Made by a program: the position numbers and the translations under genes. Shown here piece by piece: positions 18,659-57,822 of a stretch of DNA of 64,000 bases (its first letter is position 1; each line of letters opens with the position of its first letter). Source of the DNA: Tubulanus polymorphus (Eukaryota > Nemertea > Palaeonemertea > Tubulaniformes > Tubulanidae); contig NC_134026.1 of assembly GCF_964204645.1 (NCBI RefSeq), positions 31,357,150 through 31,421,149 on the forward strand, written 5' to 3'. The notes under the pieces are model-generated. The model did no database searches. It was not told the DNA's origin and worked only from the letters and a program-made list of their open reading frames with translations.

Positions 18659-31655
<12,997 letters not shown>

Positions 31656-44700: not shown

Positions 44701-47700
44701 GAATTTCGGGTTTTAAAAAGAAATCATATTTCTGGATAGAACTGGAGTAGGTCAACTTAAATACGTAAATCGGCCCCTATCATCCAATACCCTAAGTTTT
44801 CCATGTAAATTTTCAACCCCTGATTAGAAGATGTTTGATCATTGTATTGATTAAGATAGTGTTCTGTTATTCATTAGCCCTGATTTAATCTGCCTGTGAG
44901 ACAATATCAAGATCTCATTAAGCATTTGATGAAAAATCAAATGAAATTTTTTATGATGAAATTTATTAAATGTTGAGACTAACATCAGGTGATAGACCAG
45001 AAATAGAACAACAGCGTTTAAACTCATCATTGTACGCCTATATATGTCAGTGTCTATTGTATTGTTGGTCTAGTCTAGTCACTGGTGCTAGTTGGTCATC
45101 TAGTCTAGTTACTGGTGCTAGTTGGTCATCTAGTCTAGTCTCTGGTGCTAGTTGGTCATCTAGTCTAGTCTCTGGTGCTAGTTGGTCATCTAGTCTAGTC
45201 TCTGGTGCTAGTTGGTCATCTAGTTCATCTAGTCTAGTCTCTGGTGCTAGTTGGTAATCTATTCTAGTTACTGGTGCTAGTTGGTCATCTAGTCTAGTTA
45301 CTGGTGCTAGTTGGTCATCTAGTCTAGTTACTAGTGCTAGTAAGTCGTTTAGTCTCTGTAGTTGTCTCTAGTCTCTTGTCCAGTCTCTAGTCTAGTCTGT
45401 ATTGTTGATGTTAGTGTTTATTGTTGTTATTTTCAGGATGAATTTCATCCCTTCATTGAGGCGTTATTACCTCACGTGAAGGCGTTCTCGTATACCTGGT
45501 TTAACTTACAAGCCGCTAAACGTAAATACTTCAAGAAACATGAAAAACGTATGTCAATGGAAGAGGAGAGACATGTCAAAGAGGAATTGTTGGTAAGTAC
45601 TTATACTTCCCTCTAGTGACTGACTGCTTATACTCCCCTTTAGTGACTGAATCCAGTGGGTTCTATCAATACTCTCCTCTGAATCCAGTGGGTTCTATCA
45701 TTACTCTCCTCTGAATCCAGTGGGTTCTATCATTACTCTCCTCTGAATCCAGTGGGTTCTAACATTACTCTCTGAATCCAGTGGGTTCTAACATTACTCT
45801 CTGAATCCAGTGGGTTCTATCATTACTCTCCTCTGAATCCAGTGGGTTCTATCATTACTCTCCTCTGAATCCAGTGGGTTCTAACATTACTCTCTGAATC
45901 CAGTGGGTTCTATCATTACTCTCCTCTGAATCCAGTGGGTTCTAACATTACTCTCCTCTGAATCCAGTGGGTTCTATCACTACTCTCCTCTGAATCCAGT
46001 GGGTTCTATCACTACTCTCCTCTCATTTCTCCTTTTTCACTAGATATGAAATATTGATAACAATTCCTAGAAATCTACAATGTTTGACCTTACATTGACC
46101 TTTACTAATTAAATCTACACTGTCTCGTTATACATCAATATTTATGATAGTAGTTCTAGGAATTCTGAGACGTGAGACAGAGACGTGAGATCTATTCTCA
46201 ATAACACATCCAATTTCAACATTCTCAACAGCAGCATTCATATAAACACAAAGACAAATAGTGACTGCTTAAGAGAGTTGAGACTTTTCAACTCAATTCT
46301 AAGAGAGTTATGACTTTTCAACTCAATTCTAAGAGAGTTTGTGACTTCTAAACTAAACTGTTCCAATAGGTTCTCATATCTTGATAAATGGCAATTTTAC
46401 TGAGTTTGGCTCCAATTGAACTGTTTTTGGCATCACTAAACTTTTGAATCATTGAACTTAAACTTTTCCATCATGAGATTTTAATAGAAAATTTATAATG
46501 TATAGAAATTCAAAATTAAATGCGGACATTGTCTGGAAATATGAGATGAAACTGATGTATGTAGGGAGTATGTGGGGTGTATGTAGGGAGTATGTAGGTG
46601 TTTCTGAATCGTTTATATATAGATATTTATTTTCTTGCCTACAGATATTTATTTAATAGTTTAAAGGAGTTATGTTGTATTGATTTAAAGATGTCAGTTT
46701 TCACTGAAATCGATATGAAACCCGTCTGCTTGCAGACCTCGAGACTAAACCCTCCGGCTAAATCATCAACCTTTATAGATATATTTAAATATGATTTCAC
46801 GTCACTTTGAAACTTGATAAAAAGATTTGAAGGGACAGTAAATTCAGGGCCTTGAAGGTTCAATTCTTCCTATCACAGTTCATTCTGCCATCTTGAATAA
46901 ATACATGGTTACAGTAAATCTTGCCTTACTCAGATGCGGCCGAAAAATACTAAATCATTTTTGTTAATTCCTAACAAATTTTTCTATCCTTTACTTGGAC
47001 TTCGCTGACCTCCGACCAATTTTACTGGACAACTTAGTTCGAGTTAGGCGAGGTTTAGGCCTATACTAGCGAAGTAAGGCGCCTCTAGATCGGTTGTCAA
47101 TCGTTCTAAATTACACCAAAACGAGAATTGTTTAAAACCGAGTGTTTACCCCTCAGTGCGACGTATGATTTACCCACCTCAACCTCCACACTGTGTTTAC
47201 CCCTCAATGCGATGTATGATTAACCCACCTCAACCTCAACACTGTGTTTACCCCTCAGTGCGACGTATGATTAACCCACCTCAACCTCAACACTGTGTTT
47301 ACCCCTCAGTGCAAGGTATGATTAACCCACCTCAACCTCCACACTGTGTTTACCCCTCAGTGCAACGTATGATTAACCCACCTCAACCTCCACACTGTGT
47401 TTACCCCTCAGTGCAACGTATGGTTAACCCACCTCAACCTTCACACTGTGTTTACCCCCCAGTGCAACGTATGGTTAACCCACCTCAACCTCAACACTGT
47501 GTTTACCCCTCAGTGCGACGTATGGTTAACCCACCTCAACCTTCACACTGTGTTTACCCCCCAGTGCAACGTATGGTTAACCCACCTCAACCTCAACACT
47601 GTGTTTACCCCTCAGTGCAACGTATGGTTAACCCACCTCAACCTTCACACTGTGTTTACCCCCCAGTGCAACGTATGGTTAACCCACCTCAACCTCAACA

Positions 47701-53600: not shown

Positions 53601-56600
53601 AGACCTAGTTCACAGACTTCTCCTAATATAGGTACGTCCCTTTCCTCTTCTCCTAATATAGGTATGTCCCTTTCCTCTTCTCCTAATATAGGTACGTCCC
53701 TTTCCTCTTCTCCTAATATAGGTACGTCCCTTTCCTCTTCTCCTAATATAGGTACGTCCCTTTCCTCTTCTCCTAATATAGGTACGTCCCTTTCCTCTTC
53801 TCCTAATATAGGTACGTCCCTTTCCTTTACGAGAAAATCTGGAAGTTTATCACTGTGACCCTCTCTCAATCTGACCCCTCTGACTGTGACCTCTCCCTCT
53901 CCCAATCTGACTCCTACCCCTCTCTCAATCTAACCCTCTCTCTCACTATGGCCCCCTCCCCCTCTCAATATGACCCCCCTCTTCCAATCTGACCCCTCTC
54001 AATCTGACTCCTACCCCTCTCCTATTCTGACCCCTCTCAATCTGACCCCTCCCCCTCTCAATTTGACCTCTCTCAATCTGAACATCTCTCTTGCTATGAC
54101 CTCCTCCCCTCGCAATCTAACCCACTCTCAATCTGACTCCTCGCCCAATCTGACCCATCCCTCTCTCAATCTGACCCATCCCTCTCAATCTGTCCCATCC
54201 CTCTCAATCTGACCCATCCCTCTCTCAATCTGACCCATCCCTCTCAATCTGTCCCATCCCTCTCAATCTGACCCATCCCTCTCTCAATCTTACTCCTCCC
54301 ACTCTCAATCTGACCCCTTTCTCACAGTGACCCCCTCTCCCTCTATATATAACATTATATATTAAGAGAGTGATAATATCTCGTAAGCTTTATATCAATT
54401 TGACCTTTTGAATAAAACAACTGATTCTCAACTAGACAGTGAGATATCATTTCAATTTTCGATATTTTCAGGTCCGTCTGCTTCTAGTTCTCAACTATCG
54501 ATCAATCAACAAGCTACCCCTGGTGGCGGCGAGCTATTGAAAAGTCCGTTGAAGTATCAGCAACAGCCGGGTGGAGATACTTTATCAGATTTTGTGACGT
54601 TAGTTTGTCGCGAGGCTCAGATCGCTCAAAACCAAAACAACAGTGAAAACAATGTGAGTAAAATACATTAACATCAGAGGGAGCCACCTGTGTCAATTTT
54701 ACATCCATCCCACTGAATGTCAGCCTCCTTCGTTCAAATATCTGCTGCTGCCTCTGAGTTTGAGTTACACTAAAATGAAGCGTAAAACTTATTACTTTTC
54801 ATCGTTTGATAATTATTTGATTTTTGTAATGTGTCACTCAACTCGGGATCCAGTTCCACGGTTTTGAGTTAGAGTTAACTGTGAACTCAGGATCCAGTTC
54901 CACGGTTTTGAGCTAGAGTTAACTGTGAACTGTGGATCCAGTTCCACAGTTGTGATTTAGAGTTAACTGTGAACTCAAGATCCAGTTCCACAGTAGAAAG
55001 TTAAGGACTCAGGACCCTGTAAAACATTGATGTTGTGCTGTTAGTTTGAGATTATAATTGTAAGTTATTTATTTATTTGTGTTCACAGTCGTCGTTTCTG
55101 CCAGTGAAGAAATATTGGTCGTCCGTAAGTTCAGAAATTTTCTAATGATAATAATTGATTAAGCCTGAAATCTGTATTGTGCTAACACAAACGAGTTAAA
55201 TTAACGTGCTTACGATATTTAAAAAAAAGTAGGCCTACAGGAAATTAATTAGACCTTGTGAAACTAGAAGCAGCTATTGTGTTCTTCAAACTCTGACGGA
55301 TCTCAACTAATTCTTAAACAGATTGAAGATAAGCTGAATAACTTGAAAGAAAATACATTATTTTTAAATGTTAAACGTGAAACAGGACCGAAATCGGTAT
55401 AAGATTAATGATTATTTTGTAGAGTGGTCAGACTTCCGGCCCGTCGACACCGACGTTGAAAAGTCCTACGAAACTACCTCAGTTTTTTATCCCGGGAATG
55501 TTACCGCCTCCACCGCCCCCTCCGTCTGTCGCCCGTCCTGTCGCTGTGTTAAAAACATCTAACGGTGACGTTGTTTTAGGCGGTAATAGTTCTCCTCCTG
55601 TTTCTATATCAACCGCTACATCCAGTAAGTATTCATAAAATAACGAGTTTAATTATTGCATCTCAGGGGGCGCTGCAGTTGCTCAAACATTGGTTACAGT
55701 TAACTAGTGGATAGTTGTTACTATGGTATTTATCCGCCTGTTATTATAAACCAACCTTTTAGCAACTGCAGCCCTAGTAGCTCGTTAATGAATTAATTGA
55801 TAAATAACCTCGTTACAGGTGGAGCATCTGCGGCAAGCGGGGGAGGTCTAGCTACAAATAGTCCGACAAACCGTGGAATTATGTCCAGTCCGTTCTCCTT
55901 ACTTCAAGGTCGTCCGGAGCACGCGTTTCATCATATACATCCGCAACCACCACAGGTATACTCCACCAGGGGGCAGCACACACTATTACACCCACTACGG
56001 GGCAGAAGTATGTCTATTTCATCCAGTAGGGGGCAGCACTATATAGTATTTCTCTTTCTATTCTAGATATTTACATACCCCAGTATTAGCCCTGTGAACG
56101 CTATCAGTGGAGTAATTAACTCCACCAGGGGGCAGCACACACTATTACACCCACTACGGGGCAGTAGTATGTCTATTTCATCCAGTAGGGGGCAGCACTA
56201 TATAGTATTTCTCTTTGTATTCTAGATGTTTACGTACCCCAGTATTAGCCCTGTGAACGCTATCAGCGGAGTAATTAACTCCACCAGGGGGCAGCACACA
56301 CTATTACACCCACTACGGGGCAGTAGTATGTCTATTTCATCCAGTAGAGGGCAGCACTATATAGTATTTCTCTTTGTATTCTAGATGTTTACGTATCCCA
56401 GTATTAGCCCTGTGAACGCTATCAGCGGAGTAATTAACTCCACCAGGGGGCAGCACACACTATTACACCCACTACGGGGCAGTAGTATGTCTATTTCATC
56501 CAGTAGGGGGCAGCACTATATAGTATTTCTCTTTGTATTCTAGATGTTTACGTACCCCAGTATTAGCCCTGTGAACGCTATCAGCGGAGTAATTAACTCC

Positions 56601-57822
56601 ACCAGGGGGCAGCACACACTATTACACCCACTACGGGGCAGTAGTATGTCTATTTCATCCAGTAGAGGGCAGCACTATATAGTATTTCTCTTTGTATTCT
56701 AGATGTTTACATACCCCAGTATTAGCCCTGTGAACGCTATCAGTGGAGTAATTAACTCCACCAGGGGGCAGCGCACACTATTACACCCACTACGGGGCAG
56801 TAGTATTTCATCCAGTAGAGGGCAGCACTATATAGTATTTCTCTTTGTATTCTAGATGTTTACGTACCCCAGTATTAGCCCTGTGAACGCTATCAGTGGA
56901 GTAATTAGTCCAACAACTATCACACTACTAGCATCTCCAGTGGCTACACCTCGGAGCACTCCCAGATCAACTCCTATTCCGCGATGGACGACTCCACTAG
57001 TACTCGACGACGGAAGTTTAGATTATAACATGATGGCGAGTTTAATACCGACTCAGATGTTGGGCGATGATCACGAAGCTTTATCTGAAGGTCGAATGCT
57101 CGGGACGTTCTTAGGTAAAGTATAAATAAATAATAAGATAAAAACCCACTATTTACAGATAAAAAGAATTTAAAAACAAGAATTTATTTATTCAATTTAA
57201 AATATATATGAGACACGACGTTTCGATCTCACCCTAGAGATCATCGTCAGGTGTCTTTTATATATTTTAGATTGAATGAATAAATTCTTTCTATCTGTAA
57301 ATAGTGGGTTTTTATCTTATTATCCGTTCATTGCACGTTTGAGTGCGGTTATCATTCTATAAATAAATGAATTGATGCTGTGAATGCAGTCATACTCTCA
57401 TTGAATTGTTATATAGACAATTAGGACTCAATTAGAAAGACGAATTCAGTTATGTAACTGTTCTAACGCAACTGTGCAACTGGATCCATGTGACTGTCAC
57501 ATGGACCCAGTTGCACAATTGCGAGTTACAGTTAACTCTCAGTGGAATTCTAACTCACAACTGTGGAACTGAGTTTGTATTTCTAATAATGAGGTATTGA
57601 ACGCCATCTAGTGTGTGAGAGCGGTACCGCAGTAATTGAGGTGATGTGATTTGTTTTTATTTTTCAGAGAGATTTTTAAACCCGATGGGAAATCAGGATT
57701 CAGTTGATACCGGAGGAGGAGGAGGTCATCATCACTTCTCGATATCAACATCGAGACCTTTATCACAAAACCTGACGACTTCTACAAATACAGACTCATC
57801 ACCCGAACATAAACCATCTTGA
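41726..57822 (+). CDS. NFI: Nuclear Factor I transcription factor
   Basis: Sequence-specific DNA-binding factor (TTGGCN5GCCAA sites), orthologous to the single invertebrate gene related to vertebrate NFIA/B/C/X. Exons: 41,726-41,734 (M-T-M, proposed start), 45,437-45,592, 48,186-48,561, 49,278-49,334, 50,945-51,016, 52,610-52,963, 53,401-53,631 (or later donors), 54,472-54,653, 55,089-55,124, 55,423-55,624, 55,819-55,955, 56,856-57,114, 57,668-57,822. From the second exon on all joins keep phase; with the first donor of exon 53,401 the protein is 741 residues. The DNA-binding/dimerisation domain (about 4-180) is strongly conserved: [66 protein letters not shown]. Later blocks include [24 protein letters not shown] and a MLPPPPPPP proline-rich segment. 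The start is the weakest part; an alternative 5' exon at 44,460 is listed separately. Confidence 0.96.
41990..42664. repeat. 26-bp minisatellite (CTAGGTGGATAGATGATTCTC)
   Basis: About 26 copies of a 26-bp unit (CACAGCTAGGTGGATAGATG plus ATTCTC). Variants (GTTCGG, ATTGTC, ATTCTGC) recur, showing block copying. It lies in the long first intron of NFI. Confidence 0.96.
42932..43225. mobile_element. Dispersed element, GGATC-type end, copy B
   Basis: It starts AAGGGCAGATCCAGGATTC and matches the copy at 21.55-21.79 kb through blocks including GAAAATTAAGGACAAAA and TATCAGGCCC. It lies in the first intron of NFI. The two copies are too diverged to be recent. Confidence 0.5.
43274..43998. repeat. 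26-bp minisatellite (ATGGTACCACTAGAGATATGG)
   Basis: About 28 units of 26 bp, with shorter variants TAGATGCTAGATGGTACC that recur at patterned intervals. It lies in the first intron of NFI, 0.6 kb from another 26-bp array of unrelated sequence. Confidence 0.96.
44419..44540 (+). other. Possible alternative NFI promoter and 5' exon
   Basis: TATATAAA at 44,419 and a second TA-rich run to 44,457 precede ATGATG at 44,460. The frame reads [19 protein letters not shown] and then MDYFQN, protein-like and free of repeats, and ends in phase 0 if spliced after 44,540, which would join to DEFHPF. The donor there (AAT/GTGGTT) is poor, so this is only a candidate for an alternative N-terminus. Confidence 0.3.
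45066..45345. repeat. 30-bp minisatellite (GGTGCTAGTTGGTCATCTAG)
   Basis: Nine copies of a 30-bp unit with TCTAGTCTAGT lie in the NFI first intron, ending about 90 bases before the exon at 45,437. The open frame across it is a repeat artefact. Confidence 0.94.
45612..46024. repeat. 32-bp minisatellite (GAATCCAGTGGGTTCTATCA)
   Basis: About 13 units of 32 bp (27-bp variants lacking CTCCT) begin right after the donor at 45,593. They lie in the intron that divides the NFI DNA-binding domain. Confidence 0.94.
46025..47145. other. NFI intron, unique sequence
   Basis: AT-rich intron sequence without a supportable exon or RNA gene. Confidence 0.55.
47146..48132. repeat. 51-bp minisatellite, open in frame for 330 codons
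   Basis: About 19 copies of a 51-bp unit, reading as a 17-residue repeat of the type [17 protein letters not shown] on the plus strand. Because 51 is a multiple of three, one stop-free copy yields a long open frame. It lies in an NFI intron and stops about 50 bases before the 3' splice site at 48,185, with a TAA in between. Not called as a gene. Confidence 0.95.
48655..49250. repeat. 47-bp minisatellite with AACTGTGGAACTGA core
   Basis: Twelve or thirteen copies of a unit with ACTGTGGAACTGAGTCCTGA, GTTCAGAGTTGTTAACTC and ATACTCATA. It is the same dispersed core as at 8.1, 11.3 and 14.3 kb. It ends 27 bases before the NFI exon at 49,278. Confidence 0.95.
49365..49712. repeat. About 45-bp minisatellite (CAGATTGGGGATCTCGAGG)
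   Basis: Seven or eight G-rich units containing TCTGGATAGACCC alternate with TCTGGATAGAACCCTGCC, in an NFI intron. Confidence 0.92.
49854..49935. repeat. (GAAT)n microsatellite
   Basis: About 20 copies of GAAT with one AAAT interruption. Confidence 0.96.
50026..50236. repeat. Pyrimidine-rich minisatellite (CTCCTGTCACACCTCCCC)
   Basis: About ten degenerate units, C/T-rich on the plus strand, lie 35 to 240 bases upstream of the acceptor at 50,270. Together with that acceptor this is an unusually long pyrimidine-rich approach. Confidence 0.9.
50271..50351 (+). other. Candidate alternative terminal exon of NFI
   Basis: A good acceptor (TTGCTGTTTCTGTTGCAG) precedes 50,271. In phase with the exon ending at 49,334 it reads 25 codons (beginning [12 protein letters not shown]) to a TAA at 50,345-50,347 that overlaps AATAAA at 50,346-50,351. 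Its end does not fit the next coding exon, which instead joins directly from 49,334. A short NFI isoform with DNA-binding domain only would result. This is unproven. Confidence 0.4.
50621..50676. repeat. (CTG)n triplet repeat
   Basis: About 18 CTG/TGC triplets with one TAC interruption in an NFI intron. Expandable CTG tracts in introns are known to form hairpins; instability here is inferred only. Confidence 0.96.
51045..52592. repeat. 28-bp satellite with GTGATCAC palindrome
   Basis: About 55 units of 28 bp (CTGTGATCACGATGGTTTAA plus CATCCTAT) occupy nearly the whole intron between NFI exons ending at 51,016 and starting at 52,610. GTGATCAC is a perfect palindrome in most copies. A block with CATGATGG and TTTAAAATCC recurs near 51.47, 51.78 and 52.15 kb, showing higher-order structure of roughly 310-370 bp. 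The array ends about 20 bases before the splice acceptor. Confidence 0.96.
53038..53245. mobile_element. Dispersed GGGGCCAGTT element
   Basis: It begins CTGGGGCCAGTTCCACAGTC and contains GACTTAAGTCC and CTTAAGATTGGCATTAAG, matching a copy at 15.14-15.27 kb. The right part, GGGGCTAACTCC...GAGTTAGCCCCGGG, is inverted, and ends in an inverted GGCCCC. It lies in the NFI intron before exon 53,401. Confidence 0.5.
53627..53826 (+). repeat. 30-bp coding repeat with seven tandem splice donors
   Basis: Seven copies of TTTCCTCTTCTCCTAATATA plus GGTACGTCCC. Each ends AATATAG/GTACGT (second copy GTATGT), with donors at 53,632, 53,662, 53,692, 53,722, 53,752, 53,782 and 53,812. The unit is 30 bp, so each further donor adds ten residues ([10 protein letters not shown]) to NFI exon 53,401 without changing phase into the exon at 54,472. 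Reading past the last donor meets a stop at 53,856. Confidence 0.88.
54050..54300. repeat. TCTGACCCATCCCTCTCAA minisatellite
   Basis: Degenerate pyrimidine-rich units of about 20 bp in the NFI intron after exon 53,401. The preceding 53.86-54.05 kb is a looser version of the same. Confidence 0.88.
54838..55000. repeat. About 46-bp minisatellite, reverse GGATCCAGTTCCAC core
   Basis: Four copies of CAGGATCCAGTTCCACGG with GAGTTAGAGTTAACTGTGAA, the reverse orientation of the core found at 11.3, 14.3 and 48.7 kb. It lies in an NFI intron. Confidence 0.9.
55956..56855 (+). repeat. 159-bp tandem repeat duplicating the NFI exon-13 splice acceptor
   Basis: The unit contains a pyrimidine tract and acceptor (CTCTTTGTATTCTAG), the first 45 coding bases of the following exon ([15 protein letters not shown]), then intron-like sequence with two CTCF-like motifs. 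Acceptors precede 56,067, 56,226, 56,385, 56,544, 56,703 and 56,856, spaced 159 bp (the last 153). Only after the sixth does the conserved NFI exon continue ([15 protein letters not shown]). Each decoy's frame stays open until the TAG of the next acceptor. After the 45 bases comes GGA/GTAATT, a usable donor, so each could act as a phase-0 microexon. Confidence 0.93.
55961..56830 (+). promoter_or_regulatory. Cluster of about 12 CTCF-like motifs
   Basis: Each unit of the 159-bp array carries CCACCAGGGGGCAGCAC and CCAGTAGGGGGCAGCAC (or the AGAGGG variant), both fitting the core CCASYAGRKGGCRS recognised by the CTCF zinc fingers. Six copies of each are present, all in the same orientation. CTCF is conserved in bilaterians including molluscs. 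Occupancy is inferred only. Confidence 0.5.
57130..57323. mobile_element. 194-bp MITE in last NFI intron
   Basis: Inverted ends start ATAATAAGATAAAAACCCAC at the left and read its exact reverse complement at the right; they continue with few mismatches through CTATTTACAGATA for over 35 bp. The core has AATATATATGAGACACGACG and the mirrored CGTCAGGTGTCTTTTATATATT. It has no coding capacity. It begins 15 bases after the donor at 57,115. Confidence 0.88.

Follow-up and report, generated by a model that had tools for sequence, protein, structure and literature searches.

Minisatellite-type arrays that repeat an exon-intron boundary have been described in amphioxus globin genes, where BflGb6 carries 150-160 bp units, in 6 and 3 copies, made up of the 3' end of an intron and the 5' part of the exon, and BflGb9 has the donor-side boundary repeated; these arrays were named mirages, RT-PCR suggests that they are spliced regularly, and they were put forward as a way in which introns could be gained (PMC3087553). 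Similar boundary arrays are present in amphioxus PGBD5, Adh and TnC (PMC3902484), and no mirage-named arrays outside amphioxus are described in the papers searched. Three further systems are related in part. Minisatellites at exon-intron boundaries within human segmental duplications have variable internal repeats that can form novel introns via cryptic splice sites (PMC2812944). The X-linked macrosatellite DXZ4 has reported CTCF binding (PMC3491370). The Rogers model, in the form in which it is cited in PMC3087553, holds that introns can be gained by tandem duplication of AG/GT sites.

An array of this known kind, in a new host group and with an unusual cargo of CTCF-type motifs, lies in the nuclear factor NFI gene of the genome analysed here. 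The window (the whole 64,000-nucleotide stretch of DNA that was analysed) covers C2:31357150-31421149 of a 267.8-Mb assembly, on a contig of 31.9 Mb whose end is approximately 0.5 Mb away. Like the amphioxus mirages (Adh3, TnC, BflGb6/BflGb9, PGBD5), the NFI array consists of tandem units that cross an exon-intron boundary and repeat splice signals, and a second NFI array provides a donor-side version comparable to BflGb9. Unlike them, the NFI array has a lophotrochozoan rather than a cephalochordate host, its units carry CTCF motifs, and acceptor and donor arrays share one gene. The lophotrochozoan host extends the host range of mirages and does not exclude membership. The human boundary minisatellites likewise place tandem repeats at an exon-intron boundary, but they belong to recent primate paralogues, whereas NFI is a single-copy transcription-factor gene known here from genome sequence. 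As in DXZ4, a CTCF motif is tandemly repeated; in contrast to DXZ4, CTCF binding to the NFI array is a prediction, and the array lies within a gene and has a 159-bp unit. The repeated acceptors and candidate donors also form the intermediate expected from the Rogers model as cited, although the weakness of the donors sets the array apart from a completed gain under that model.

The host gene was identified by the DNA-binding domain of NFI: in addition to the pre-N domain match (Table 1), a later exon matched MH1 in Pfam, and the solved structures closest to the protein were the vertebrate NFI A/B/C/X. One NFI gene was found in a genome search, and no Pfam domain was found in the C-terminal part of its product. 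With the last acceptor of the array (56856), exon phases match and the spliced NFI frame stays open between 52610 and its TGA stop codon (57820-57822). The Hox cluster of the same animal was intact and compact (~316 kb; G000, C6:5318228-5634756), with all matches on one strand. It includes homeodomains whose signatures we take to be Lox2-, Lox4- and Lox5-like; the animal is therefore a lophotrochozoan, and amphioxus was rejected as the host. Dense clusters of C2H2 zinc-finger matches were seen elsewhere, at G000:C8:11.30-11.62 Mb and C10:10.90-10.93 Mb.

Table 1. Positions within the window of the NFI exons, boundary arrays and CTCF-type motifs (a slash marks the splice point)
Feature	Coordinates	Strand	Evidence
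First DNA-binding exon of NFI, ending VKEELL	45437..45592	+	Pfam NfI_DNAbd_pre-N (PF10524), 1.9e-27
Mirror tandem-donor array in NFI, 7 x 30 bp, first donor after 53631	53616..53826	+	TRF, sequence, donor score, frame
Upstream NFI exon, ending HIHPQPPQ, donor CAG/GTATAC at 55956	55819..55955	+	Frame continuity, GT/AG ends
Tandem array of 159 bp x 6 across intron/exon boundary (mirage minisatellite)	55960..56907	+	TRF, exact unit starts, copy identity
CTCF-type motifs, 12 strong (19-mers at 55960, 56020 and repeats) and 6 weak (first 55989)	55960..56827	+	PWM scan
Decoy exon copy 1, acceptor TTCTAG, weak donor GTAATT at 56112	56067..56111	+	Donor scoring and unit comparison
Decoy exon copy 2	56226..56270	+	Unit comparison
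Decoy exon copy 3	56385..56429	+	Unit comparison
Decoy exon copy 4 (its unit identical to unit 2)	56544..56588	+	Unit comparison
Decoy exon copy 5	56703..56747	+	Unit comparison
Real next-to-last coding exon of NFI, opened by acceptor copy 6; donor TAG/GTAAAG, phase 1	56856..57114	+	Open spliced frame
Last NFI coding exon, ending HKPS*, acceptor TTTTTCAG	57668..57822	+	Phase fits
Sole further CTCF-type motif of comparable strength in window, just past NFI stop codon	57830..57848	-	Score 21.7

The sequence-only reading had proposed that a 159-bp unit duplicated the acceptor together with the first 45 coding bases of an exon, and this was borne out. Tandem Repeats Finder (TRF) called one array at 55960-56907, with a period of 159, 6.0 copies and 97% matches; the unit starts (55960, 56119, 56278, 56437, 56596 and 56755) advance in exact 159-bp steps; and TTCTAG/ATRTTTAC occurs six times in the array, once per unit. 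Each unit thereby includes a 3' splice acceptor together with the opening 45 bases of the next-to-last NFI coding exon. Pairwise identity among units was 96-100%, with units 2 and 4 identical and the remaining pairs differing at 2-7 sites. Six near-identical acceptors had been described, and six are indeed present, but only the last serves as the normal acceptor, the five before it being decoys. Similarly, the context upstream of the exon, said to be preserved in all copies, is nearly so, except that unit 6 has a 6-bp deletion within its intron part and unit 1 has an altered polypyrimidine tract. The copies do encode 15 residues, as had been stated, yet copy 1 begins IFTYP rather than the MFTYP given for the cassette. 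GTAATT directly follows every 45-nt copy, and in copy 6 it is coding sequence (V-I). A DNA search of the whole 267.8-Mb assembly found no second locus of the array. A transposon origin was considered and rejected, the array having been found once and the flanks of other sampled CTCF-core sites being unrelated except within arrays.

Splice-site strength was evaluated against 19 donors of the same genome, drawn from NFI, a guanylate cyclase gene, a riboflavin-kinase-like gene and CTCF and assigned by frame and homology. The decoy donor GGA/GTAATT scored 1.39, below all 19 true donors, whose leave-one-out minimum was 2.14, and 29% of all GTs within the window scored at least as high. Its -1 base is A and its +5 base is T, the latter present in none of the 19 true donors, so that a competent 5' splice site does not accompany the copies. 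The acceptors were alike, scoring 5.28, with copy 1 at 3.47. Thus, the decoys have usable acceptors and poor donors. The 45-nt copies are in phase 0, as had been reported, and, with the decoy donors in use, any number of microexons from 0 to 5 would keep the frame. The earlier statement that entry at any decoy without use of its donor runs into the TAG of the next acceptor also held: a decoy acceptor alone brings in a stop codon that precedes the last junction by 259-889 nt, and such transcripts would be predicted targets of nonsense-mediated decay (NMD) if the animal follows the junction rule. An intronic GT inside the unit, at 56008 (GAA/GTATGT), scored better than the decoy donor, but an exon ending there, checked by hand, would shift the frame. 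Folding provided no significant indication of RNA structure hiding the decoys (z-score -1.29).

The array is best explained as a tolerated mirage minisatellite with one productive acceptor, the last copy (56856), a reading to which we assign a probability of roughly 0.7; on this account the array is mostly tolerated rather than exploited. An older cluster of ~30-bp sub-repeats with CTCF-type cores probably lay just upstream of the acceptor, and this cluster, the acceptor and 45 coding bases may then have become one 159-bp unit that expanded to six copies via unequal exchange or slippage. Splicing would most likely join 55955 to 56856, because only copy 6 leads an exon that is normal in length and has a competent donor, as exon definition would favor. 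The other five acceptors would act as decoys whose own donors, judged by their scores, are probably too weak for microexons, and transcripts that enter at a decoy should be degraded by NMD because the stop, which is evident from the frame, falls upstream of the last junction. Two considerations run against a tolerated mirage: intron definition would favor the first acceptor (intron of ~111 nt), the six acceptors being nearly equal, and the confinement of exonic differences to third codon positions would fit translated copies.

The sequence-only reading had regarded each copy as a potential cassette, and optional 45-nt microexons would add 0-5 extra 15-residue repeats to the activation region of NFI. 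The decoy acceptors are close to the true one in strength and are followed by a phase-0 GT, every number of inserts is in frame, and the four exonic differences among copies are all in third codon positions, a pattern with a chance of ~0.012 by hand calculation or ~0.03 when CpG decay is allowed for. That pattern is suggestive only, since it fits translation of the copies but would also arise if they exchanged sequence with the real exon, which is under selection. With a donor that scores below every true donor and resembles random GTs, and with the equivalent amphioxus arrays reported to be spliced regularly, the cassette interpretation is poorly supported and we consider it unlikely. Appreciable use of the decoy acceptors without their donors, yielding a poison exon or a shorter NFI with an alternative tail of 50-52 residues, would allow copy number to tune the amount of full-length NFI. 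The short distance from the upstream donor to the first decoy (~111 nt) and the near-identical tail and stop to which each decoy leads are compatible with this outcome, but it requires an exon of ~412-1048 nt to outcompete one of 259 nt and seems rather unlikely. Finally, a collapsed or over-expanded repeat in the assembly could mimic such an array, as unit 4 repeats unit 2 exactly and the comparable BflGb6 array was mis-assembled in a draft assembly (PMC3087553). Simple assembly stutter is less likely because the units differ from one another, each with distinct variants and copy 6 with its own deletion, and the chromosome-sized contig (31.9 Mb) suggests long reads; we regard an artefact as very improbable.

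Each unit contains three CTCF-type motifs, two of them strong and one weak, that share one orientation, and the strong motifs scored 20.6-21.9 of 29.5 bits with a position weight matrix (PWM). Neither these motifs nor the mirror donor array had figured in the sequence-only reading. In an independent test across the genome, the core CCASYAGRKGGCRS had 1243 matches versus 16 for the reversed pattern, an approximately 80-fold enrichment. The host encodes a CTCF orthologue at C3:3.430-3.432 Mb whose fingers are conserved, two finger segments sharing 65% and 52% identity with human CTCF. The spacing of the three motifs in each unit (29 and 31 bp) suggests that an older sub-repeat may lie inside the 159-bp unit. 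Paired cores 30-60 bp apart numbered 72 versus 0 in the control, in many arrays with differing spacers, and the flanks of sampled single CTCF-core sites were unrelated. These observations raise the alternative that the array is chiefly a platform for predicted CTCF binding, serving as a boundary or slowing polymerase, with duplication of the splice site incidental. The array is by far the densest cluster of strong motifs in the window, its 12 strong sites of one orientation face a convergent site just beyond the stop codon, and a polymerase roadblock by CTCF can influence splicing (PMC8373115). However, that roadblock model applies to CTCF downstream of an exon, and many other arrays in the genome carry the motif with unrelated spacers, which fits chance capture; a primarily CTCF-related role would thus be possible but unlikely. 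The idea that CTCF sites seed minisatellites was likewise set aside, given that ~1000 sites and an array coverage of a few per cent in ordinary regions would lead one to expect a few dozen captured by chance. Other minisatellites with the CTCF core and unrelated spacers were noted at G000:C40:79458-81119, C10:11328641-11328828, C6:18507808-18508109, C4:11006856-11007166 and C1:31733250-31734900.

The mirror array in NFI is built from units that each carry the donor ATAG/GTACGT (GTATGT in copy 2). This donor scored 7.85 (5.56 leave-one-out), which is of normal strength. Each added 30-bp unit contributes 10 more residues and all seven donors are in frame, while use of none of the seven leads to a stop. 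A tentative extension, which we think improbable, is that changes in copy number of the CTCF-loaded mirage would shift the dose of decoy acceptors and the dose of CTCF at the end of NFI together, such that array length might couple chromatin boundary strength or polymerase pausing to the splicing of NFI, a developmental transcription factor, with the seven-donor array as a second length-variable isoform axis. The tolerated mirage remains our preferred reading, and as a lophotrochozoan case with acceptor- and donor-side arrays in one gene it suggests that mirages arise in any setting with a high density of minisatellites. Both spliceosome choice among near-identical sites and the model in which introns are gained by tandem duplication could be tested naturally on it, and the CTCF motifs in every unit are a new, testable extra.

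Tandem arrays (period of at least 9, at least 2.5 copies) made up 24.5% of the window, compared with mostly 0-10% in other 10-kb samples, a range for ordinary samples that leaves out two satellite-like ones. Given this density, arrays that touch splice sites are therefore unsurprising; 2 of the 17 NFI splice sites lie inside a tandem array. The two satellite-like samples consisted of 69% (L071, C3:14.0 Mb) and 100% (L073, C5:12.0 Mb) tandem repeat and are possibly centromeric satellites. In the guanylate cyclase gene (19570-19693, minus strand), a degenerate minisatellite begins at the donor ACGG/GTATGT and has units containing CGG/GTATC, possibly representing a third boundary array.
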